Assembly: GCA_037576215.1 (NCBI GenBank)
Contig: JBANDB010000007.1
Span: 3,937,001 to 4,001,000 of the forward strand
Source: Armillaria gallica
Taxonomy: Eukaryota > Basidiomycota > Agaricomycetes > Agaricales > Physalacriaceae
DNA: 64,000 nt
Direction: 5' to 3'
Below, piece after piece: positions 13,234-26,742 of this stretch. The notes under the pieces were generated by a model. That model was not told where the DNA came from and ran no database searches. It worked only from the letters and a program-made list of their open reading frames with translations. The translations under genes and the position numbers were made by a program. How positions within the stretch are numbered: position 1 is the first letter of the stretch; every line of letters begins with the position of its first letter.

Positions 13234-14620
13234 AAATAGTGTCAGTTGAAAATATTCAATTTCTCAGAATTATATAGTATATTAATTAGCAGCCCAACTC
13301 ATGATATCATTAGAAAATCCAGCAGATTCAGGAATTGAACTCAGGCCTTTAAAAAGATTTTTAGCAATGTCACATGACTTTTCCAAGCAGATATGCTAAC
13401 CACTATACCATACTAGCATTATATATTTATATATTTATATCTCTATATGACCTTTCTCTCTTATATTTATAATATTCCAATTGGGCCCCTCCCTTTGGTG
13501 CACTCTGGTGTGCTTTTTTGCCTTATTGGGCTGGTCAAATCAGCCCATCAATTGTGCCTAGAATTGGCTATGCCATAGCATTGATGGCATCAATATCAGG
13601 CTATTTTCAGTTAAAATTCACATTTTGGCTCATTTGGAGCTTCCTCAGGCTACTGGGTGGGTTAGGGGATGGTATTAGTATATGTATAAACATAAATAGC
13701 ATAAAAGCAAACCCTCTGGTGAGGTATGGGGGCCCTGGAGAGAGGGTAAAAAGGGTAAAATAGTGAAAAATAGTGGAAAATCACTGAAAATTTGCATTTA
13801 GAGGGTGCTACATGCATTGGATCACTTTGAAAACTTGATATATGAATTTCCTTGTCTTGAAAACCCCTAAACAGCCCCTCTATAGTATATGTGGCATATT
13901 TTATAGCTAGGCATAATTGGAAAAATTGGCTTTTTATAGTGCTATGTACATCAGATCACTTTAGGGATGTTATCAATCAATTTCTACACTATGAAAACCT
14001 TAGAATACATCTTCATATGCTATATATGATCACTGAAATGCAATGAAAAATGAGGGATTGAGGGGGGAAATACTGTTTATTTAGTGTTCTGGCTATCATG
14101 TCAATCTGGGGACATCACCAATTGATTCCTTGACATTGAAAACCCCTAAACAACTCTTAGTTACATTTATGGGGTTTCAGAAATGATGGCAATAATGATG
14201 TATCAGTTTAAGAGGAGCATACATGGAAATTTGCATTTCTGAGCTTCAGAAAACTTTAGAGTTGCTACCAATGGATTCCTTGACCTTTAAAGCCCCCAGA
14301 ACATCCCAAGAGCACAATACATACCTCTAGAATACATGCAAGAAAAGTATAATAGTGAAAATCTCCGAAATGTCATATTGCTCACATTTCTGAATGTTGG
14401 GGAAGGTAATTCTGTTATAGAATACACAATATATATTGTATTATAGTGTGTACAAAAGATTAGGATAATCCAAAATGTATTGACAGAGATATAAGGAAAT
14501 CTTTTTGAAAATGAAAAGGAGCACCTCCTAGATTTCAATATTCTGGTCATCCTATCACCTGGAGACTATCAGATTCAAATTCCTGGACCCAAGAAACATC
14601 AGATTCACCTATCATTCATG
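13234..14620 (+). repeat. Left arm of a 2.9-kb near-perfect palindrome
   Basis: Every stretch I compared is the reverse complement of 14718-16104, with paired coordinates summing to 29338 and no indels. The outer ~1.3 kb looks identical. An 81-codon frame at 13518-13763 has an identical partner at 15820-15575. Differences cluster in the innermost part (near 14530-14620), and most of those seen are transitions. The frames inside the arms show no known domain and are probably not genes. A unique loop of about 97 bp (14621-14717) separates the arms. Confidence 0.9.
13316..13407 (-). other. tRNA-like sequence in left palindrome arm
   Basis: Mirror copy of 15931-16022: it has matching A-box and B-box sequences on the minus strand. 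No proper acceptor stem can be drawn. Confidence 0.6.
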
Positions 14621-14717
14621 GGGTTCATGTGTCAAAACTCTAAAGTAATAAGTGTGCTCTTATTTATGCACAAAGTTATACTGTCTGCATGGATCATGCC
14701 TTAGTAAAAATTACCCA

Positions 14718-16104
14718 CATGTATAATAGATGAGTCTTATATCTTTTGGGTCCAGGAATTTAAATCTGATAGTCCCCAGGCGATAGGATGACTAGAACAT
14801 TGAAATCTGGGAGGTGCTCCTTTTCATTTTCAAAAAGATTTCCTTATATCTCTGTCAATACATTTTGGATTATCCTAATCTTTTGTACACACTATAATAC
14901 AATATATATTGTGTATTCTATAACAGAATTACCTTCCCCAACATTCAGAAATGTGAGCAATATGACATTTCGGAGATTTTCACTATTATACTTTTCTTGC
15001 ATGTATTCTAGAGGTATGTATTGTGCTCTTGGGATGTTCTGGGGGCTTTAAAGGTCAAGGAATCCATTGGTAGCAACTCTAAAGTTTTCTGAAGCTCAGA
15101 AATGCAAATTTCCATGTATGCTCCTCTTAAACTGATACATCATTATTGCCATCATTTCTGAAACCCCATAAATGTAACTAAGAGTTGTTTAGGGGTTTTC
15201 AATGTCAAGGAATCAATTGGTGATGTCCCCAGATTGACATGATAGCCAGAACACTAAATAAACAGTATTTCCCCCCTCAATCCCTCATTTTTCATTGCAT
15301 TTCAGTGATCATATATAGCATATGAAGATGTATTCTAAGGTTTTCATAGTGTAGAAATTGATTGATAACATCCCTAAAGTGATCTGATGTACATAGCACT
15401 ATAAAAAGCCAATTTTTCCAATTATGCCTAGCTATAAAATATGCCACATATACTATAGAGGGGCTGTTTAGGGGTTTTCAAGACAAGGAAATTCATATAT
15501 CAAGTTTTCAAAGTGATCCAATGCATGTAGCACCCTCTAAATGCAAATTTTCAGTGATTTTCCACTATTTTTCACTATTTTACCCTTTTTACCCTCTCTC
15601 CAGGGCCCCCATACCTCACCAGAGGGTTTGCTTTTATGCTATTTATGTTTATACATATACTAATACCATCCCCTAACCCACCCAGTAGCCTGAGGAAGCT
15701 CCAAATGAGCCAAAATGTGAATTTTAACTGAAAATAGCCTGATATTGATGCCATCAATGCTATGGCATAGCCAATTCTAGGCACAATTGATGGGCTGATT
15801 TGACCAGCCCAATAAGGCAAAAAAGCACACCAGAGTGCACCAAAGGGAGGGGCCCAATTGGAATATTATAAATATAAGAGAGAAAGGTCATATAGAGATA
15901 TAAATATATAAATATATAATGCTAGTATGGTATAGTGGTTAGCATATCTGCTTGGAAAAGTCATGTGACATTGCTAAAAATCTTTTTAAAGGCCTGAGTT
16001 CAATTCCTGAATCTGCTGGATTTTCTAATGATATCATGAGTTGGGCTGCTAATTAATATACTATATAATTCTGAGAAATTGAATATTTTCAACTGACACT
16101 ATTT
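14718..16104 (-). repeat. Right arm of a 2.9-kb near-perfect palindrome
   Basis: Reverse complement of 13234-14620. The homology stops abruptly at the outer ends: the shared AATAGTGTCAGTTGAAAATA ends where left flank ATCA and right flank ACAGTG diverge. No target-site duplication is evident at the outer borders. The unit could be a foldback-type element or two copies of a tRNA-headed repeat joined tail to tail. Confidence 0.9.
15931..16022 (+). other. tRNA-like sequence (Pol III A and B boxes) in right palindrome arm
   Basis: TGGTATAGTGG fits the tRNA A-box consensus TRGYNNARNNG, and GAGTTCAATTCCT fits the B-box core GWTCRANNC about 65 bp downstream. The acceptor stem does not pair (the 5' end GCTAGTA has no partner near the 3' end), so this is a tRNA-derived, SINE-like segment and not a working tRNA gene. 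Confidence 0.65.
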
Positions 16105-18075
16105 ACAGTGCTTCTGGAAAATCATGAGAATCACAGAAAATGTCATCATTGGTTACATTGCTCAATAATCAAGGATATTTACCTAGTTTAGTTATAACCC
16201 TTTGATACATTCAAGACACATTTAGCAGCGTCTCTTCTTTGCTGACCACTCCAAACATCATTTTACTTGTCCTGTACCATGCTGAAAAAGTGGTAGTTGT
16301 TATTGTTGATGTAAATATGGTAGCAGGGCTCAACACAGGGGCTTCTATCAATTCCTGCAATAATATGGAGAGATTTTCTACCACAACTCTCAGAATAGTC
16401 AGGGGTCAACAATTCAACAGCGTATATACCAAAAAGAGTATTTGCAAGCTGATTTGGGTTCAGAAACATGATGACATCATTTCCCACAATTCTCATTATT
16501 TTCTAGAAGCACATTCTAGCATGCAAGGCTGGTGCTTTGTTATCTATTTCATCTTGCCATACATTATAATTGCTGTACTTTATCATGGCAAGGCACATTT
16601 GATTGACAATCACCCCAATATAGAATCATCGCATCACTCAAAAGCACTCAGTTGACATGCTCATTGATCACTTAATGAAAATGATGTGATTGACACAATT
16701 ACTCTCCCAGCTATGGCAATAGCAGCTACAGCAACTACAGACTGTGTTTACTAAGGATGTTACTTTGCCAAAGCCTCAAGAAAACATTGCCTCACATGTA
16801 CTCCTCAGCACAATGACTATCACTCAGAAATCCAAAGCTAAACAGCACCTAATAATCCACTCATTGCTTAGCAAAATTATACAGTTTTTGTCCATACATG
16901 GCAACATCAATGAGTTGCTGTTACTTTAGAAGACTAAGGACCATATGTTATCTACGATTTTTACAAAGCCAAGGCTTTACGGCCTTACTAAGTCTTGCAT
17001 ATCTACTCTATTTATAAATTCATATTGGTAGTATAAAAACTAGCTAGAAAATGTAGTTCAAGGCAGTTCATCTCTAGTTGACCCCAGACTATATTAATTA
17101 TCATCATGCTCTAGTCTGTCACCAGTAAACAATGTTTATTCACCATTCTACAGCAATACACTATTTACCCCAGCATATTCTTGATTGCATGTCAACTCTT
17201 GGGCTCACCAGAGTTATTCCATGGTTTTTAACTGTGAAGAGTCCTTTGCTATATGCTCTTCACTCTTAACACTATTGGTGCATGCTCATATTGTGCCAAT
17301 ATGTGATTACCATGCCATACCTTGCCCATATTATCTTTTATAGGCTGTCATTGTTTCTTTTTCACCATCGTTATCATCATCCATTTGAGTAGTCTCAGAG
17401 CAGACTTAGGATCAGTTTCAGCCAGTTTTCATATACTGTACTATTTTGACCTTATGTTCATGGCTTGTGACATGTTATACAACATCTTCAGCTGAGCAGA
17501 TGTTCATGGATAGCTATGACAGGGTATGTTCATCTTCATATTGTATCATCTTCATTACTGTTGCAGCCTTGTGGCTATCTTCTGTGACTGAACACCTAAG
17601 CTGTGAGCTCAATCCTTTATGATTGCAGCTTTTTACTATCCAGTGATGATGTCATGGATTGCTGGATTGTTTGGGTGGATGAAGACTTGACTCTTGCAGG
17701 TAATGCGAAATCCATCTTTGAGCTGCCAGAGTAGAGTTGTCAAGGCTGTATTATAAAACTGAATCACTTGTATGACAGAAACATCTGGGAATGCACATAA
17801 ACACTCTGGATATGTGTATTTCGTTATTCCTTGCTCAAAAATGGCATTAATTTAGAATTTTCTTTCAACTCTTCATTGTAAGCTGTGACATGCTATGAGG
17901 TATGCATATCTTCGTTTCACAGGCCTCTGTGACACATTATGTGAACTTAAGGTTGAAATAGTACAGTAGTATCAGTCCCTTGAGTGAACTTGAAGGTTAG
18001 TTTGACATAGGATAGGATTGTTTCAGCACCAGACCATTTTCAACATTGACTCAGCACTATTGCATCATATAGGAC
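16105..18075 (-). repeat. Old interspersed repeat, copy 2, middle part
   Basis: Positions 16540-17060 align in reverse complement with copy 1 (4370-4920), including the TATA-like TTATAAATAG and the TAGTAAGGC stretch. No counterpart in copy 1 was found for 17100-18070. The gypsy element was inserted at its right edge, and the repeat resumes at 26743. Open frames here are short and show no domain. Confidence 0.55.
18071..18075. other. Target-site duplication, left (aggac)
   Basis: AGGAC directly precedes the LTR start TGTTAGGG and is repeated exactly after the other LTR at 26738-26742. Confidence 0.95.
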
Positions 18076-18602
18076 TGTTAGGGACGTGCCAAATAGACAA
18101 GTATAACTCGCACGAGCGGAGGTCCGCGGAGTGCATGGGCTTTGGCGAAGCTATTAGCAACGTCACCCTTGAGCCGAAGCCCTAAGATTGGATTGCGGAA
18201 CGGAGTCCACGGAGAGCGAAGGTTTGGATAGAGAGTAAGGATAGTCCAACGGAGCGGAGGCCGCAGACTTGGAGAGCGATGGATTAGACTTGGAGTCAGA
18301 GAGAGATTTGGCTAAACCAAGTTGATATTCGAACTGAGTATCTACAAGTGATTCTACAGTATATATATGACTAGGTAGTCCGAGTCGGAGTCCGATGGAC
18401 TCCGATGGAGTTCTGTTCGCTACCGGATTCGGGTTCTAGATTTAATATGTGAAATAGTAAAATGAAACGGAAATGAAATATTAAATGGAGTAAGTAAATG
18501 GTAAGCAGCCGGGGGCCGTGGAGGTCCGATGGTGTGATTTGTTGAGGTGAAGTTTCTGCGTGAAGTCAGTGTGAAGCGGAGGTCCGCGGCATGCGCGTAA
18601 CA
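18076..18602 (-). repeat. 3' LTR of gypsy element
   Basis: The left-hand LTR begins TGTTAGGGAC and ends GCGTAACA. It contains a TATATATAT tract at 18360-18368, which is symmetric enough to serve either strand. It lies about 400 bp upstream of the start of the antisense gene. Confidence 0.95.
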
Positions 18603-18606
18603 GTAT

Positions 18607-18615
18607 CCCCCCCTT
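18607..18615 (-). promoter_or_regulatory. Polypurine tract of gypsy element
   Basis: On the minus strand AAGGGGGGG lies four bases before the 3' LTR boundary. A polypurine tract here is the expected plus-strand primer of an LTR retrotransposon and confirms the minus orientation. Confidence 0.8.
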
Positions 18616-18764
18616 AGTGTTCTTGCCCTCAAGAGCACTGATCCCAATGGCCGATCAGTATAGGTATGCATGCACGAAATTTGACCATGGGAATTTTGCA
18701 ACTTAACCTCCTACCTTCATCATCCCTCTTTTTTTCCTCGCTTCTTCTTTCCTCAACGAGAAAC

Positions 18765-20500
18765 ATGGCAGCGCCCGTCGAGTATCGTGACTCCGTAACT
18801 CCTGAGCCCTATGAGTCGGCACCAACGCCTCCCGATCTTTCCTTTGAAGATTACAAGACCTTGACGGAGGAGCGGACCGCCGCGGAGGAGCGTTATGAGG
18901 ACGCCGTAGGTCGACATGATGACTGGAAGGCTGCACGAGCAAAGGAGGCCCGGGTGGAGAAATTGAAGCAGGATAAGTTGGCACGTCTGCTGAAGGTTGA
19001 GGCCTTGAAGAAAGAGAAGGAAGAGGCTGAGAGGAAAGCAGAGGAGCAGAGGCAGGAGGAAGAGCGGCTCCGACTGGAGGCCGAAAAAGAAAAAGAGCTG
19101 GCCTTGGAGAGGGAGAAGCAGGAGGCCGCAGAGCGTCAGCATCTGGCTGACTTGGAGGAACAGGCGGAAAAAGAGAGGGAGAAAGAACGCGAGGATGAGG
19201 TGAACGAGTTGGCTTTGAAGGCTGCTGGTGCCCCGTCGGCGAGTGACGGTGATTCCGAGGCGGATCCCTCGGACCCGAAGACTGTCGCGATGGCTGCATT
19301 GAAAAGGAAGAGGGAGATTGCGAAGGGAAAGAGGAGGGCGGATACCACAGAGCCTCGAAAGCGTAAATTCCGGTCCGCAAGTGTGGTGGAGGATAGTGAG
19401 GGAGGTGGGGCTGCTTCGGCGGGGCCGTCGTCACCCAAACGTCTGAAGACGGAGCCTGTACCTCAGGCCGGTGATAAGGTCTTGACTGGTAACGGTATGT
19501 GGAACCGTCGGAGCTCCGGCCTGTTTGCTGACTTGGGTTAGGACGCTGTGGCAAGTGTCGTGCTGACAAAACCGCCTGTTTCATCCGCGGCGCGCTTCGA
19601 ACCTGTCAGCGTTGTCGCGTCAAGAAAGCTCAGTGTTCGTTTAACAAGAGTGGCGATGAAGGTGGCCCCGCAGATTCCGGTAGTATGCTGGACATCCTTC
19701 AGGATATTTCTTCCCGATTGGCGCGTTTGGAGGAGAAGGTGGATAAGGTTGCAGAAAGGGTAGAGGACCTAATGGATGATTACCATCCAGATTACGACGT
19801 CAAGTACCCCAAGGACCTCCCTTCCGAGTCTTTGAGAGCCGAATTCGAGGCGTCCCGACTGGAGCTCCACAAGACGGGCGATATCTATAGCGAGGCGTTG
19901 CGTCAAATGGCCAAGCAACGTCTTGATAGGGATATGGCTATTATCAAGGGCGAAGGTTTACAGGCGTTGACCGTGGATATGCCGCTGGGAATGGAGGATC
20001 CCTATGAGATTCTGAACAAGTCCTTCTGGGTTGGTCAAATTGGCGCCGCCGGGTTGCATGAGCAGATGCTGGCTCGCAACAAGTTCCTACGGGCCCGCCG
20101 GGACTTCTATAATGCGCACGGACACCGCAAGGAATGGCAGTTATGGAAACGGTTGTTGAAGGACCAGGAAGGGTACCGGGTGGAGGATTCGGACGAGCCG
20201 TTGGACTTGGAGGAGGAAGTTAGGGAGGATATGGTCCCGGGCGTGGAGTCCATCGGCATTCTGGAATTGGACGTCTTGATTAAAATGCCCATGCCTGATG
20301 TGGACCCAGAGGAAGAGGCCGAAAAGGAGCTCCGGCGGCAGGCGACGGCGCGGATGAGGGCGTATAATCGTGAGAATGGGATCGAGGTGGAGAGTGAAGG
20401 AGAAATGTATGAGGATTTGGAGCCGATGTTGGTACAGGAGCTTGAGGGGGAAGTAGAAGATGTAGATATGGCGGGTCCGTCTGGCGCCGAAGCTTCCTGA
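18765..20500 (+). CDS. Antisense accessory gene of gypsy element: coiled-coil Zn2Cys6-cluster protein
   Basis: Two exons, 18765-19494 and 19542-20500, encode 562 residues on the strand opposite to gag-pol. The start MAAPVEYRDS was chosen as the ATG just before the conserved-looking body; an upstream in-frame ATG at 18666 is possible. Residues about 45-175 form a highly charged Glu/Lys coiled coil, followed by basic NLS-like clusters (KRKREIAKGKRRAD, PRKRKF). The exon junction leads straight into CGKC at residues 246-249; the six cysteines 246, 249, 256, 265, 268 and 275 fit CX2CX6CX8CX2CX6C, the spacing of fungal Zn2Cys6 clusters. A second coiled coil follows (MLDILQDISSRLARLEEKVD), and the C-terminus is acidic. 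DNA binding in the nucleus is inferred, not shown. The gene converges with pol, leaving about 260 bp between stop codons. A purely structural zinc-binding role is the alternative. Confidence 0.8.
19495..19541 (+). other. 47-nt spliceosomal intron in the antisense gene
   Basis: It has donor GTATGT, branch site CTGAC at 19528-19532 and acceptor GGTTAG. Unspliced, the frame stops at 19539-19541; spliced, GGN joins CGC TGT GGC and the six-cysteine cluster becomes in frame. An intron in this direction would not be removed during reverse transcription of the sense genomic RNA, which explains how it can persist. Confidence 0.85.
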
Positions 20501-20759
20501 ACGTTGCTTGCCTTGTTATATAATTTTGTACCCATAATTTCTTGCTAGTATTGTACATCGCCGGGCCCCAGAGGTCCCATAATTATATTGATTTTCTTGG
20601 AGTTGGAGTTAGGAATGGAAGAGAGTGAGAACAGAGCCGACGGGTTCCGTTCCCGATTAGGAAATGAATTTGCAATAGTTTTTGTGGATTTGATTTGAAA
20701 TAGAAAAGGTCGGAGCCGATGGAAACCGATGATGTTACAGGGTGAAACGGAGGGAGAAA

Positions 20760-23700
20760 TTAGAGGGTGGATTTTCGGATGGTGACTTTGGCTAAAGGTC
20801 CTGGTTTGTCTGGGTAGCGACGGTGGAAATCGTCAATGAATTCGTCTGCGGAGAATTCGGTAGCCGGTAACCAAGCAAATTCCTCGTCGGTGCCTTCATA
20901 ACCTAACCATTGAATCCTGTAGAGAAGAGGGCACCGGAACCGGCGGTCTATTTTGGAGTCGAGGATCTGAGCTATTTCGTACTGCTCTTCACCATCAACT
21001 TCCACCGGAGGCGGCGGAGGCTGAGTGCGATTAGGGATAGTGTTTTCTTCTACAGGTTCCAGTTGCGATACGTGGAAGACAGGGTGAATGGCACGGAGGT
21101 CCGACGGGAGCTTGAGAGTGAAGGAATGGGAGCCTGGTTGAGCTATGATTTCAAATGGGCCAAGGAATTTCTCCGCGAATTTCGCAGTAGGGTGAGTAGT
21201 CTTGATATGCTTGGAGCTAAGATAGACTTTGTCACCTACTTTGAAAGGAGGAGCCGGATTTCGGCGCTTGTCTGCTTGGATCTTGTAGCGAGACTGCGCC
21301 TGGGTGATTTCGTCACGTAGGAATTGGTGTAGTTCATCAAGGTTGACTACAAAGTCACGGGCCCGGGCGGAGGCGATATCACGTTCAGGATGAACAGTGA
21401 TATTAGGGTGGTAGCCTTTGTTGGCAAAGAATGAAGAAATTCCGGTGGAGGCATTCGGAGCATTGTTGTATGCAAACTCTGCGATGGGTAGTAGTAAATC
21501 CCAGTTGTCCTGTTGATAAGAACAATAAATGCGGATGTACTGTTCCAAGGTTTGGTTTGCACGTTCCGTTTGCCCGTCGGCCTCCAGATGATATCCAGAA
21601 GTGAAGTGAAGTTCCATGTCCAAGGCCTTAGCAAGGGCGCGCGTGAATTGGGAGACAAATTCGGAGCCGCGGTCAGAGGTGATGTGGTTAGGGACGCCAT
21701 GCTTGGAGAAAACATGAATGACGAATAACCGGGCAAGTTCTTCGGAATTAATGGTGTCGTGTGTAGGGATAAAGATGGCTTGCTTGCTTGCGCGGTCAAT
21801 TACTACAAGGATAGCAGTGAATCCGTTGGAGTCCGGTAACTGTTCAATGAAATCCATTGAAATGGAATCCCACGGACGATCCGGAACCGGCAAGGGTTTA
21901 AGTAAACCGTAAGGGCGGTGTCTAGGTGTCTTGTTGCGACTGCAAACCGTACAAGATTTGACGTAGTGGCAAACATATTCACGCATCTGTGGCCAGGTAT
22001 AGTTCCGTCGGACTAATTCCAAGGTCCGATTTTGACCAAAATGACCTGCCAAGATGTGATCGTGATTATTCTGTAGGACACGGAGACGGAGATCCTCGGA
22101 GTCCGGCACATAGATGCGATTATCAAGACAGAGGATGTCTGATTCATCTACGGACCACTGAGAGGGGGAAGTGGGAGTGGAGGATTGGGCCTGACGGAAA
22201 CCGTCGGAGGCTGCGGAGTCGGATGATTGTGCTTGCTTTATGTCTAAATGAAGCTTGTCAATATCCATTATAGCACTAGCACGGAGGGTAGGGCCTTCGA
22301 GGAAAGTAGCACGGAGAGACGCAGAGAGTTGTTCTTGAGTGAATACAGGGTGGAAATTGTGAGGATTGACTGCTGCGTATTGACTATCCCCCTCTTTTGG
22401 ATAGACGTCCCATCGTCTAGTGAGTGCGTCCGGTTTTCCTCCGAGTTTCCCTGGTCGGAAGCGGATTACTAGATTGAATTGGGATAGGTATTCAGACCAC
22501 CGGACTTGCCGTCGGGTGAGAATCTTGGTGGTTGAGAAATATTCAAGATTCTTGTGGTCTGTTACGACGTCGATCGGTTCCGCGGAGCCTTCGAGGTAGT
22601 GACGCCAGTATTTAAAGGCTTCAAAGATGGCTAGAAGCTCTTTATCATGGGTGTCGTAGTTGAGTTCGGCATTGTGGAGGCTCCGGGATAGGAAAGCGAT
22701 AGGGTGGATTTCGCCGTCGTCAAGGTAGATAGAGAGGATAGCAGCAATGGCGTAGTTGGAGGCGTCGGTTTCCACGACTAATTGCCGGTCGGGGACCCAA
22801 TGGGTAAGGATAGGAGCGTGAGTGAAGGCTTGCTTTAGTTCATTGAAAGCGGCCATGCACTTGTCGTCGAATTTCCACGGAGTTCCTTTGCGTGTGAGGT
22901 GAGTTAAAGGAATAACGATGTCACTGTACTCGTGGATGAAACGGCGGTAGAAATTGGCGAAGCTGAGGAAGGATTGGATATCCTTAACTTTCCGCGGAAC
23001 CGGCCAATCTAAAATGGCCTTGACCTTGTCTTCGGACATGCGGAGGCCCTCCGGTGAGAGAATGTAGCCTAGATATTCCACGGAATCCCGGTGAAACTCG
23101 CATTTGGATCCTTTGCAGTAGAGCCCGTTTGCTCTTAATCTGCGTAGGACCTCGCGTACGTGTTGCCGGTGCTCCGCGGGGTCATTGGAGTAGATGAGGA
23201 TGTCGTCGAGGTATACGACTACCGAAACATCAAGCATGTCAGCAAAAATGTCGTTCACGAAGCGTTGGAATGCCGTGGGAGCATTGGTGAGCCCAAAAGG
23301 CATGACACGCCATTCGAAGGAGCCGTAACGGGTCCGGAAGGCTGTTTTCCATTCATCACCTTCAGCTATGCGTACGAGATGATAAGCATGTCGGAGATCA
23401 AGTTTGGTATAGATGCGAGCGGAGCGCGCGGAGTCGAGGAGGTCGGAAATGAGTGGAAGGGGATAACGGTCTTTCTTGGATATCTTGTTTAAGCCACGGA
23501 AATCGACACAAAGACGGAGTTCTCCGGTCTTTTTCTTGACAAAAAGCACAGGAGCTCCGTGGGGAGAACGTGAGGGTGTGATGAATCCACTACGGAGATT
23601 ATCGTCAATAAACTCACATAAAGCTTTGAGCTCGGACTCCGAGAGGGAGTAAATTGGCCCAAGCGGAGGAGATGTTCCTTCCTCAATATTGATCTTGAGG

Positions 23701-24581
23701 TTGTATGGTCTATGCTCGGGGAGTTTCTCGGAGAGCGAGTCACTGAAAACATCAGCAAAGTCGTGATATTCTGCTGGTATGTCTGTCATATCCGGTGGGG
23801 CCGCAGAACTGGCCATTCCGCTGATGCTAGGTGCAGAAGGTTGGAGGGTGTATTGTTGAGCTCCATCTTCAGCACATGCTCGAACAAAAGCGGCCGCGGA
23901 GATGATAGATATCTTGGGGATAACCGATGCAGAAAAGGAAGGGATGGTAGGGTAGGAATAGATGGGTTCGTATGGCGGCGGAGTCCGTCGGGATCTCGGA
24001 GTTGGCTGGGAAGCCGGGGTTGGAATGGGATTAGGAGTTGGACGAGGAATGTCCGCGCGGTTAGATGCAGTTGCATCGGAGACCGTGGAAGCGCTTGCAG
24101 GGGAAGAGACACCTGGTAATGGTGAACGGAAAGTGATACTGTGCTTTGCCCAGTCAATCAACGGATTGCAGCGGGAGAGCCAGTTGTATCCCAGAACAAT
24201 GTTACAGGATGAATCTAGACGAGTGACATAGAAGTCAATAGAGATGATGTTTCCGGAAGGGAAACGCACTGGAAGGGTAATGGAATGAGAAATGTGAGAT
24301 CCGGCGGAGCCGTCAAGAAGCCGAAGTTGAACAGGAGGGATAGGTCTGGTAGGAAGGTTGTGATCCTCAACGTATTTAGAGTCGACGAAACAGTGGCTAG
24401 AACCGGAGTCAACCAAGGCAAGAAAACAAAGGATAGTAATGATTGGAGAGTCATCGGACTCCGTACCGGAGCCGACTTCAGAAGAGAGTGATACGGTTAG
24501 TGCATGGTTGGAAAGAGCGGCGGCGTTGAGGGTGACAACCTCCGATGTGCGATTACAGTCAACGCAACCCTGATCTCGCAC
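20760..24581 (-). CDS. pol: Gypsy Pol polyprotein (PR-RT-RH-IN-chromodomain)
   Basis: The frame is open for 1273 codons counted from a GTG at 24581, and stays open upstream into the end of gag, so it is probably made as a Gag-Pol fusion and has no start of its own. Domains by residue: aspartic protease DSGSS at 58-62; reverse transcriptase about 340-510 with YLDD at 457-460; RNase H about 600-720 starting at TDAS; integrase zinc finger with His 842/847 and Cys 877/880; integrase catalytic D910, D970 and E1006; GPF module at 1141; chromodomain about 1199-1258 (YRIQWLGYEGTDEEFAWLP). All catalytic residues seen are present and there is no break. The chromodomain places it in the chromovirus branch and suggests targeting to particular chromatin. 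Confidence 0.95.
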   Translation of the reverse strand: MRDQGCVDCNRTSEVVTLNAAALSNHALTVSLSSEVGSGTESDDSPIITILCFLALVDSGSSHCFVDSKYVEDHNLPTRPIPPVQLRLLDGSAGSHISHSITLPVRFPSGNIISIDFYVTRLDSSCNIVLGYNWLSRCNPLIDWAKHSITFRSPLPGVSSPASASTVSDATASNRADIPRPTPNPIPTPASQPTPRSRRTPPPYEPIYSYPTIPSFSASVIPKISIISAAAFVRACAEDGAQQYTLQPSAPSISGMASSAAPPDMTDIPAEYHDFADVFSDSLSEKLPEHRPYNLKINIEEGTSPPLGPIYSLSESELKALCEFIDDNLRSGFITPSRSPHGAPVLFVKKKTGELRLCVDFRGLNKISKKDRYPLPLISDLLDSARSARIYTKLDLRHAYHLVRIAEGDEWKTAFRTRYGSFEWRVMPFGLTNAPTAFQRFVNDIFADMLDVSVVVYLDDILIYSNDPAEHRQHVREVLRRLRANGLYCKGSKCEFHRDSVEYLGYILSPEGLRMSEDKVKAILDWPVPRKVKDIQSFLSFANFYRRFIHEYSDIVIPLTHLTRKGTPWKFDDKCMAAFNELKQAFTHAPILTHWVPDRQLVVETDASNYAIAAILSIYLDDGEIHPIAFLSRSLHNAELNYDTHDKELLAIFEAFKYWRHYLEGSAEPIDVVTDHKNLEYFSTTKILTRRQVRWSEYLSQFNLVIRFRPGKLGGKPDALTRRWDVYPKEGDSQYAAVNPHNFHPVFTQEQLSASLRATFLEGPTLRASAIMDIDKLHLDIKQAQSSDSAASDGFRQAQSSTPTSPSQWSVDESDILCLDNRIYVPDSEDLRLRVLQNNHDHILAGHFGQNRTLELVRRNYTWPQMREYVCHYVKSCTVCSRNKTPRHRPYGLLKPLPVPDRPWDSISMDFIEQLPDSNGFTAILVVIDRASKQAIFIPTHDTINSEELARLFVIHVFSKHGVPNHITSDRGSEFVSQFTRALAKALDMELHFTSGYHLEADGQTERANQTLEQYIRIYCSYQQDNWDLLLPIAEFAYNNAPNASTGISSFFANKGYHPNITVHPERDIASARARDFVVNLDELHQFLRDEITQAQSRYKIQADKRRNPAPPFKVGDKVYLSSKHIKTTHPTAKFAEKFLGPFEIIAQPGSHSFTLKLPSDLRAIHPVFHVSQLEPVEENTIPNRTQPPPPPVEVDGEEQYEIAQILDSKIDRRFRCPLLYRIQWLGYEGTDEEFAWLPATEFSADEFIDDFHRRYPDKPGPLAKVTIRKSTL

Positions 24582-24604
24582 GGAGGATACAGGGCTGCCT
24601 TCTA

Positions 24605-24611
24605 GTTTTCC
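24605..24611 (-). promoter_or_regulatory. Candidate -1 frameshift site between gag and pol
   Basis: On the minus strand GGAAAAC directly precedes the gag TAG. Gag reads GAA AAC TAG; shifting back one base reads GGA AAA CTA GAA and enters the open pol frame. The A-site slip AAC to AAA is well matched; the P-site is not a perfect repeat, so the heptamer is non-canonical. No downstream pseudoknot was checked. Confidence 0.45.
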
Positions 24612-25589
24612 GACTCCGTCGGAGCCGGATCCTCAGAAGCAGGAGCGGGTTCTTCAACTTCCGCAGCACGGCCCTTAGCGGAGGCCGCAGCTTTGCGTTT
24701 GTTGCAGTCCTCGGTCTTGTGCTTGCTTCCACAGAACATACAGAGATTGTTCTTTCGGCGGTGGTCCTTTTCTTCTTGAGTAAGACGGCCGTCTTTACCT
24801 AGCTTATCAGCATAGGGCTTGGGGTTGGAAGTGGATCCCGAGGAGTTGGAATCGGAAGACTTCGGAGTCGATCCGGAAGCCGAGGAGCTTGCGTTGGAAT
24901 TGGAACCCTTAGGTTTAGGGTTGTTGGAATATGAACCGGAGGACTTGTTCTCCTGGTTTTCACGGGATATCTCGGTCCTCCGAGTCCAGTAGCGAGCGTC
25001 GAGTTCTTGGGCTAGGAAGCGCATGTCACGGAGACTGTTAGGCTTCCCGTGGTGAGCCATATCGTCCTTGATGCATGTGCAAAGTCCGCGGTAGAAAGCA
25101 TGGCAGAGGGAATTGTCGCCGTAACCAACTTGGGATGTGTATTGGTTGAACTGAACCATATACTTCATGATTCGGTCTCTGTCGCGCATCCGGAGATGTT
25201 CCAGGGCATCCTCAGCATCTCCGATGGCATCGAAAGGGCCAAAATTTGTTCAGAGTTCGTCAAGGAAGGCGGCATAAGAGTATTGCCATGCTGGCGGATT
25301 CAGCGGATTGGGACGGAGGATGTCTGGTTCAAACCAGTCAAGAGTGGTGCCGGAAAGAAAGGAGATGGCATAGTTGACTTTACTGGCATCCGCCGCAAAA
25401 GCAGTGGGTCTGTCATTAAAGTTCAACTGAAGGGAGACAATGAAAGCCTTAAGCTTCCGCGGGTCGGAGCCATCAAATGTATCAGGTTCTTTGACCTTGG
25501 TACGGATGTTGTTGGGTCGAGGATTGTTTAGCGAAGTGGAAACCCCGCGCAACAGGTTCATGAATTCTCATAAGAATTCTTGCTCGTTG

Positions 25590-25735
25590 GGAGTATTGTT
25601 GTCGGGCCCGCCCGGTCCTCCTGGTCCATTGGGACCTCCCGGACCTCCGGGACCGCCAGGACCACCAGGGCCACCTGGTCCTCCTGGTCCATTGGGGCCG
25701 CCGGGGCCTCCGGGTCCATTCGGGCTACCTGGTTG
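25590..25735 (-). repeat. Gly-Pro collagen-like repeat within gag
   Basis: About 13 near-tandem GGP/NGP triplets are encoded, with repeating nine-base units such as GGTCCTCCT on the plus strand. Such a run in the N-terminal half of Gag is probably a disordered linker that varies in length between copies. Confidence 0.75.
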
Positions 25736-26197
25736 GGAGTCGGATCCATCGTCACCCTGGTTGTGTCGGTTCGAAGGATGAGTGGGGGTATCGGTTTCGC
25801 CTCCAGAATCATCGGATCCCGTGGCATCCGTTTGTTCCCCATTGGAGGTGGGTTGAGGTGCTGGGGTGTGTGGATCTGGATTCTCCCGGTATCCGTCGAA
25901 TATGCCTGTCCTTCGGTGACGTAGAAGGTCGTCGGGTGGCAGAGTACTGAAAGGGTTAGGAGAACCGTAGTTGTCGGATTGACGAGCGGTAAAATTGGAG
26001 TGGCTGTAGGTTTCCCTACGGGATGGTTGTCCTCCGACGGAGGCCGATCCAAAAAGTTCCGGATTTTCCTTGGATGCAGATGCTGGTATGTCTTCCATGG
26101 AAAAGATTGGTGTTTTTTGTTTCGGGCCTTCGCCTGTCTCTGGAGGGTAAGTGTATGTGGTTGTCATGATTTAGAAAAAATTCGACCCAAGGGGTTG

Positions 26198-26208
26198 AGT
26201 TCAAATAT
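26198..26208 (-). promoter_or_regulatory. Primer-binding region, self-complementary to the 5' end of the transcript
   Basis: Two bases inside the 5' LTR boundary, the minus strand reads ATATTTGAACT. There is no TGG start typical of pairing to a tRNA 3' end. It can pair with AGTTCGAATAT within the LTR (26470-26460) over 11 positions with one G-U pair. That segment lies about 30 bp downstream of the TATA tract, where the RNA should begin. This is the arrangement known for self-primed Tf1-type elements. Confidence 0.6.
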
Positions 26209-26459
26209 ACTGTTAGGGACGTGCCAAATAGACAAGGATAACTCGCACGAGCGGAGGACCGCGGAGTGCGTGGGCTTTGGCGAAGCTATTAGCAACGTCA
26301 CCCTTGAGCCGAAGCCCTAAGATTGGATTGCGGAACGGAGTCCGCGGAGAGCGAAGGTTTGGATAGAGAGTAAGGATAGTCCAACGGAGCGGAGGCCGCA
26401 GACTTGGAGAGCAATGGATTAGACTTGGAGTCAGAGAGAGATTTGGCTAAACCAAGTTG

Positions 26460-26470
26460 ATATTCGAACT
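26460..26470 (-). promoter_or_regulatory. Predicted transcript 5' segment that pairs with the primer-binding region
   Basis: The minus strand reads AGTTCGAATAT, complementary to 26198-26208. Its position about 30 bp after the TATA tract fits the expected transcription start. The same segment is present in the other LTR. Confidence 0.5.
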
Positions 26471-26494
26471 GAGTATCTACAAGTGATTCTACAG

Positions 26495-26503
26495 TATATA
26501 TAT
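26495..26503 (-). promoter_or_regulatory. TATA-like element of the gypsy LTR
   Basis: TATATATAT in the 5' LTR is the only clear TATA motif and lies 25-35 bp upstream of the proposed RNA start. Confidence 0.5.
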
Positions 26504-26737
26504 GACTAGGTAGTCCGAGTCCGAGTCCGATGGACTCCGACGGAGTTCTGTTCGCTACCGGATTCGGGTTCTAGATTTAATATGTGAAATAGTAAAATGA
26601 AATGGAAATGAAATATTAAATGGAGTAAGTAAATGGTAAGCGGCCGGGGGCCACGGAGGTCCGATGGTGTGATTTGTTGAGGTGAAGTTTCTGCGTGAAG
26701 TCAGTGTGAAGCGGAGGTCCACGGCATGCACGTAACA

Positions 26738-26742
26738 AGGAC
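26738..26742. other. Target-site duplication, right (aggac)
   Basis: Exact copy of the five bases at 18071-18075. Confidence 0.95.

Follow-up and report, generated by a model that had tools for sequence, protein, structure and literature searches.

A spliced antisense gene with a zinc-cluster-like motif, and an excess of CGG/CCG pairs, in a Ty3/Gypsy retrotransposon of Armillaria gallica

Results

Organization of the element

The stretch of Armillaria gallica DNA analysed here (64 000 nt in full, referred to as the window) contains an 8.66 kb element at positions 18076–26737, with gag-pol on the minus strand. Its paired LTRs, target-site duplication and order of domains (protease, reverse transcriptase, RNase H, integrase) place it in the Ty3/Gypsy group. 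The LTRs, each of 527 bp and in the minus orientation, lie at the gag-pol 3' end (18076–18602) and the gag-pol 5' end (26211–26737), with 13 mismatches between the two copies, and are flanked by the duplication AGGAC (18071–18075 and 26738–26742). A polypurine tract recognized by eye, AAGGGGGGGATAC on the minus strand, occupies 18603–18618. The pol frame (20763–24581, minus strand) encodes protease, reverse transcriptase (RT), RNase H, integrase, an SH3 domain and a candidate, weakly matched chromodomain; RT, RNase H, integrase, SH3 and protease (RVP_2) were matched over the Pfam cut-off, whereas the match to the C-terminal chromodomain that would mark a chromovirus was sub-threshold (19.5 bits, cut-off 25.1). 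The gag region (24605–26170, minus strand) is a single frame with two stops in the window copy, and includes a GGP-rich repeat at 25596–25730. The observed/expected ratio of CpG was 1.00 in the element, compared with 0.36 in the remaining window.

A two-exon gene opposite to gag-pol

Between pol and the 3' LTR lies a gene on the plus strand (18765–20500), opposite to gag-pol, which after splicing comprises 562 codons and a stop. Exon 1 (18765–19494) encodes an N-terminal motif, a charged stretch and basic clusters (KRKR and RKRK); the 47 nt intron (19495–19541) has the donor GTATGT and the acceptor TTAG; and exon 2 (19542–20500) encodes a six-cysteine cluster (CX2CX6CX8CX2CX6C, 19547–19636), a coiled coil, a conserved helical part and an acidic tail. 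The coordinates, intron and reading frame given in the initial annotation were reproduced, and both the cysteine spacing and the basic clusters of exon 1 were present as it had claimed. A nested independent transposon was rejected as the origin of the gene, which is enclosed by one target-site duplication and one LTR pair.

Searches of the fungus's own genome (86 Mb, 28 contigs) with the exon-1 frame and with exon 2 found 87 and 91 matching pieces, respectively. There were 72 candidate pol 3' ends, of which 40 were scored for an adjoining antisense gene. It was found on the expected side and strand in 39 (19 of type A and 20 of type B, as defined below), within 600 bp of pol in 38 cases and at 2.1 kb in one, several of the gene copies being fragmentary. 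A conserved antisense ORF between pol and the 3' LTR is therefore a feature of most copies, as had been expected of sister elements, and a chance ORF was discarded because 39 of the 40 scored pol 3' ends carry the gene. The one scored copy that lacked it (L053, G000:C10:1373600-1378000) instead holds, in the interval from pol to a partial LTR, frames that belong to a different element and look copia-like by eye. An opposite-strand tally of 49 out of 49 included overlapping loci and is not an independent count.

The intron was found at the matching position in types A and B, with a GT donor, an AG acceptor and, by eye, a CTRAY-like branch motif. In diverged type A copies compared with the window, dN/dS was 0.06–0.25 for exon 2 (omitting a copy in which dS was saturated; many exon-2 dS values exceeded 1 and are imprecise) and 0.12–0.30 for exon 1, whilst it was 0.23–0.71 in the two nearest copies, where changes were few. 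These ratios exclude stop codons and include many decayed copies, and so blend the selection that preceded insertion with subsequent decay. Values for the diverged copies were well under 1 and not near it, in agreement with the initial annotation, and by this measure the diverged copies of the gene are under purifying selection.

The encoded protein

Zn2Cys6 clusters have the spacing CX2CX6CX5-12CX2CX6-8C. The central linker is 8 residues in type A, which lies within this range, and 14 in type B, which lies above it. All six cysteines, together with K27, K28, F33, N34 and K35, showed no variation among 15 sequences from the two types that were free of stops. Two wider sets (41 and 38 sequences) included partial and differently spliced models; there, only the last three cysteines were kept in at least 90 %. 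Several decayed copies had lost one cysteine. Conservation between the window protein and six type B proteins was 0.55–0.57 in the N-terminal 60 residues and 0.52 in the cluster, compared with 0.22–0.37 elsewhere. An N-terminal motif resembling EYR.S.TPEPYESAPTP (exon 1, residues 1–24) was better kept across the two types than most of the protein.

Matches to Pfam Zn_clus (PF00172) were all sub-threshold, and family membership by Pfam was rejected. Thirteen of 38 sequences matched at E up to 10, the best at E 0.12; the window piece scored 9.7 bits against a gathering score of 21, over residues 20–35 only, corresponding to the second half of the motif; and Zn_clus was absent from the 21 Pfam families matched at E up to 1 by 41 members. 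No NCBIfam family was found for the window protein. A sequence search of solved structures with window exon 2 returned KKT4 only (E 0.0034, residues 47–127), and a profile search returned only E values of 0.045 or more; the profile alignments to Leu3 (E 1.1) and AlcR (E 3.2) were not significant, though they covered the cluster. Several homologues are labelled Zn(2)-C6 proteins in UniRef, others hypothetical or uncharacterized.

AlphaFold2 predicted a long helix behind the cluster (exon-2 residues 45–78, central block pLDDT 95–96), consistent with the coiled coil that follows the cluster in the Zn2Cys6 family. This coiled coil was the only confidently predicted part. A model of exon 2 was poor, with a pLDDT of 55.8, and the cluster region (residues 1–40), predicted without metal, had block values of 44–60. 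Plain Zn2Cys6 membership, as put forward in the initial annotation, thus lacks support: the type A spacing and the coiled coil agree with it, the type B linker and the Pfam score do not. As judged from its sequence, the predicted protein has the spacing and layout of zinc-cluster DNA-binding proteins and lies outside formal Zn2Cys6 membership; its cluster may be a variant with the basic half in second place.

Two gene types on one backbone

Phylogenetic trees were reconstructed for 37 chosen copies with both exon 2 and pol 3' data. The exon-2 tree split types A and B at 100/100, and type B exon 2 was only 34–40 % identical to that of the window. The pol 3' part of type B copies was 88–97 % identical to the window in 13 out of 14 copies, the other (L045) having an identity of 0.78, where other pol-like sequence of the locus was probably co-aligned. 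Between the types, dS was 0.17–0.46 in pol and ranged from >1 to saturated in the antisense gene. Transversions at fourfold sites relative to the window numbered 176/456 in exon 2 and 80/2234 in pol for type B, and 436/2124 and 127/3295, respectively, for type A; these pooled totals include both L037 and L038, which are overlapping loci of one element. Stop codons were masked in these comparisons and pairs under the length limits were dropped.

Synonymous differences in the gene and in pol disagreed in all seven hand-chosen pairs, in both directions (P 8e-6 or less). The gene was the closer part between L011 and the window copy (21/377 in the gene, 59/291 in pol, P 7e-9) and between L043 and L051 (53/388 and 66/231, P 8e-6), whereas pol was the closer part between L041 and L048 (210/352 and 19/246, P 4e-42). 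Gene and pol distances were uncorrelated within type B (rho 0.03, Mantel P 0.41), and correlated within type A (0.75). The pol tree intermixed the two types, with four changes, two of which were forced by well-supported branches. AU tests on a 1.1 kb pol segment rejected neither a single B clade (P 0.113) nor a clade of the window copy with L010 and L011 (P 0.371), so the case for exchange rests on distances and not on topology.

Among the matches listed, many of which are unnamed, named homologues came from Armillaria only (A. ostoyae, A. solidipes, A. borealis and A. gallica). A. ostoyae, A. solidipes and A. borealis each contain relatives of types A and B, which suggests that the split between A and B is older than those species, unless the genes were transferred.

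The U3 region varies with the gene

LTRs were compared in 22 copies, the other 14 of 36 having been dropped for want of a complete adjoining LTR. Divergence between the types was concentrated at 18476–18575, in the gene-proximal part of U3, where identity between type B and the window was 0.51–0.75 in four 25 bp bins; in the eleven bins of 18076–18350 it was 0.86–0.99. Mean distances between A and B were 0.097 for R-U5, 0.225 for U3, 0.518 for the gene and 0.111 for pol. Over all 231 pairs, U3 tracked the gene (0.83) and R-U5 tracked pol (0.66), but the U3–gene correlation was largely driven by the contrast between A and B: within type B it was 0.31, and within type A R-U5 tracked the gene (0.76) more closely than U3 did (0.56).

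Two CGG/CCG sites in U3 were spaced by N4 in all 17 readable type A copies (of 29 examined) and by N3 in all 14 type B copies, as read by eye with decayed triplets; this difference is a hint only, since it reflects one inherited state within each type. The CGG/CCG sites of R-U5 were common to both types. Alternatively, the type-specific stretch could simply serve the antisense gene as its promoter or 5' leader. Elsewhere in the LTR, TATATATA was seen by eye at about 18364–18373 and in most aligned copies of both types; its placement could fit sense as well as antisense starts.

CGG/CCG pairs in the LTRs and coding regions

Pairs of CGG triplets are the classical half-sites of zinc-cluster proteins. 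The spacing N3-4 was chosen after viewing the LTRs, in which CGG-N3-4-CCG occurred five times in the 3' LTR (0.25 expected from dinucleotide shuffles) and four times in the 5' LTR (0.26 expected); gag and pol then provided an independent look. Against the same kind of shuffles there were seven occurrences in gag (24605–26150; 1.2 expected) and 10 in pol (1.9 expected), whilst the three in the antisense gene (1.3 expected) were not significant. The rest of the window, with its lower G+C and CpG content, contained two in 55.2 kb.

The excess in pol persisted under codon shuffling, in which protein and codon usage are held constant: 10 CGG-N3-4-CCG pairs were present against 2.9 expected, a number reached in none of 1000 shuffles. 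Two classes picked after viewing the pol spectrum were likewise in excess and were equalled in none of 300 shuffles each, namely CGG-N2-4-CCG (19 against 4.9) and the everted CCG-N0-1-CGG (13 against 2.8). In an open search of 5-mers in pol, CGGAG ranked first (41 against 18.2, z 5.3; next 3.1), with both orientations above codon-shuffle expectation (10 against 2.6 and 31 against 15.4). On the sense strand, the ratio of CTCCG to CGGAG was 31:10 in pol, 9:6 in gag, and 8:1 and 9:1 in the LTRs.

None of 24 other gypsy frames from the same genome gave P<0.05 for CGG pairs. The first 12 of these were one family (88–98 % identical); the 12 added were 65–95 % alike and 69–84 % identical to the first, some being short (146 and 395 codons). 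All 24 were 65–98 % alike and about 40 % identical to the pol of the window element; as they represent one other gypsy lineage, they count as one broad control and not as 24. Some results weigh against a function of these words. Among related copies, only nine out of 20 reached P<0.05 for CGGAG in the 3' kilobase of pol, and an excess also appeared in one of 12 tests on gene exons (exon 2 of L044, P 0.015). The LTR of L013 had lost all its CGG pairs. In decayed copies, CpGs within CGGAG were kept no better than other CpGs (0.559 compared with 0.548 in type B; 0.266 compared with 0.299 in type A).

Discussion

A candidate element-encoded regulator and its sites

The initial annotation had proposed that the antisense gene encodes a regulator of the element itself, which binds the LTR, controls copy number through antisense RNA or assists integration. 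The excess of CGG/CCG pairs speaks for the first of these roles; the other two found no direct evidence. We give an even chance to the reading that the element encodes a nuclear DNA-binding protein, with zinc cluster and coiled coil, that acts on the element's own DNA, and that the gene and U3 form an exchangeable cassette. Points against it are the sub-threshold Zn_clus matches, the low confidence of the predicted cluster, the ordinary decay of CpGs within CGGAG, the patchy CGGAG excess among related copies, the non-significant AU tests and a U3–gene correlation that owes most to the contrast between A and B. The antisense gene would probably be transcribed from the LTR just upstream of it and spliced once; the protein would dimerize, probably via the coiled coil, enter the nucleus and recognize the CGG half-site pairs observed in excess in LTR, gag and pol. 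Candidate sites in gag and pol would be kept through synonymous codon choice. A protein covering the element in this way would most likely favour the element's own transcription or counter silencing by the host. An activator or anti-silencer is more likely than a repressor, because cis sites that lowered transposition would vanish from successful copies.

This last argument also weighs against the alternative of a self-repressor, in which the antisense protein or RNA would limit gag-pol and thereby copy number, with A and B as immunity groups and a new cassette escaping the repression. It has a precedent, as some retroviral antisense genes repress sense transcription, and deep coexisting types on one backbone fit an escape from resident repression, as does the type-specific spacing of the U3 sites (N4 in A, N3 in B). 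However, an element should lose the sites through which it is repressed, whereas LTR, gag and pol have more of the candidate sites than expected. Moreover, since the R-U5 sites are common to both types, type-specific recognition would hang on two U3 sites with one linked inheritance within each type, and we regard self-repression as unlikely.

The CGG words might instead be signals at the RNA level, for example for packaging by Gag, and be unrelated to an antisense protein that has some other nuclear role. The predominance of CTCCG over CGGAG on the sense strand of pol, gag and both LTRs is what such a signal would produce, but both orientations exceed codon-shuffle expectation in pol, pairs are enriched more strongly than the single word (3.9-fold, for a class defined post hoc, compared with 2.2-fold for CGGAG), and the pairs have the form of zinc-cluster half-sites. 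This explanation therefore appears rather improbable.

With regard to the cassette, gene and adjoining U3 appear to have recombined as an exchangeable unit onto a shared R-U5–gag–pol backbone. Reverse transcription uses the 3' end of the RNA as the template for U3 in both LTRs. A crossover in pol therefore brings the gene and U3 along as one piece, and template switching at this stage would move them jointly. The greater divergence of the gene could alternatively be due to fast evolution or to a mutation artefact, with no exchange of cassettes; the non-significant AU tests on pol, the correlated gene and pol distances within type A and the strong CpG decay of these copies are compatible with this. 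The contrast recurs, however, in transversions at fourfold sites, a kind of change that CpG decay does not produce, and two pairs (L011 with the window copy, L043 with L051) run in the opposite direction, with the gene closer than pol; we consider divergence of this kind without exchange to be quite improbable. That the gene is a captured host transcription-factor gene carried as a functionless passenger, as annotations of its relatives as hypothetical, uncharacterized or Zn(2)-C6 proteins might allow, is very improbable given its place in 39 of 40 scored copies, its low dN/dS and the occurrence of both types in three named Armillaria species.

A fuller version of the preferred reading, in which the sites of the antisense zinc-cluster protein are written through codon choice throughout the coding sequence, and deeply diverged cassettes of regulator and target (A and about four B sublineages) have been moved among copies of one backbone and occur across Armillaria species, as a selfish arms race or as anti-silencing, is put forward tentatively, as possible but short of probable. 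The element appears to combine a likely DNA-binding protein with statistically unusual candidate sites, so that the pairing can be tested, and the natural A and B versions allow a comparison of specificity. If the reading is true, a retrotransposon places regulatory sites within the sequence that encodes its own proteins and exchanges its regulator cassettes, and the antisense genes found at the 3' LTRs of retroviruses have a fungal counterpart.

Relation to known systems

Zn2Cys6 regulators of the Leu3, AlcR and Pdr1 type have a coiled coil after the cluster and bind CGG-type sites. The Armillaria protein resembles them in cysteine spacing (type A), in the coiled coil after its cluster and in its CGG-type candidate sites, and differs in the mid-protein position of the cluster, the conserved lysines in its second half, the type B linker of 14 and the sub-threshold matches to Pfam and PDB. 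HBZ of HTLV-1 is a spliced antisense regulator gene at the 3' LTR whose product is a bZIP protein with a dimerizing helix; being retroviral and bZIP, and not a zinc cluster, it offers an analogy only. The HTLV antisense promoter is placed inside the 3' LTR in a passage of PMC7264820.

Antisense extra genes are already known in plant elements and in Botrytis, and the Armillaria gene is a variation on that theme. Passages of PMC11963269 and PMC7264820 describe antisense TRP28 ORFs with predicted DNA binding in 97 % of clusters of the Retand lineage of plant Gypsy elements, with ORFs of this type also in Grande and RIRE2, and the role so far proposed there for such plant antisense genes is that of a DNA-binding regulator. 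On that description, Retand and the present element share an antisense extra ORF between pol and the 3' LTR that encodes a predicted DNA-binding protein; the latter is set apart by its zinc cluster, by an intron that is conserved, by its occurrence in a basidiomycete, by the two gene types found with one backbone and by the CGG pairs within its internal region. In fungi, the Boty-like Gypsy elements of Botrytis cinerea carry brtn, an additional gene in antisense orientation (cited in PMC8365987). The likeness is one of description, the host of brtn is an ascomycete whereas Armillaria is a basidiomycete, and the word zinc is absent from the text of PMC8365987 on Boty-like elements.

The nearest mechanism, on the accounts in PMC5735166 and PMC10398659, is that of VANC from the Arabidopsis VANDAL elements. 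This transposon-encoded anti-silencing protein targets the element that encodes it by way of short repeated motifs, and protein and target have diverged rapidly. VANDAL elements belong to another class and their motifs are described there in non-coding tandem repeats, whereas the Armillaria words also occur in coding pol and gag. In literature drawn mostly from outside subscription journals, and for search terms to which other wordings are possible, no paper joined Zn2Cys6, antisense and LTR retrotransposon; equally, none joined gypsy, Armillaria and Zn2Cys6, or retrotransposon, zinc cluster, antisense and Basidiomycota.

The window also contains, 2 kb from the element, a pair of inverted-repeat arms (13234–14628 and 14710–16104), each of 1395 nt and 99 % complementary, separated by an 81 nt spacer.
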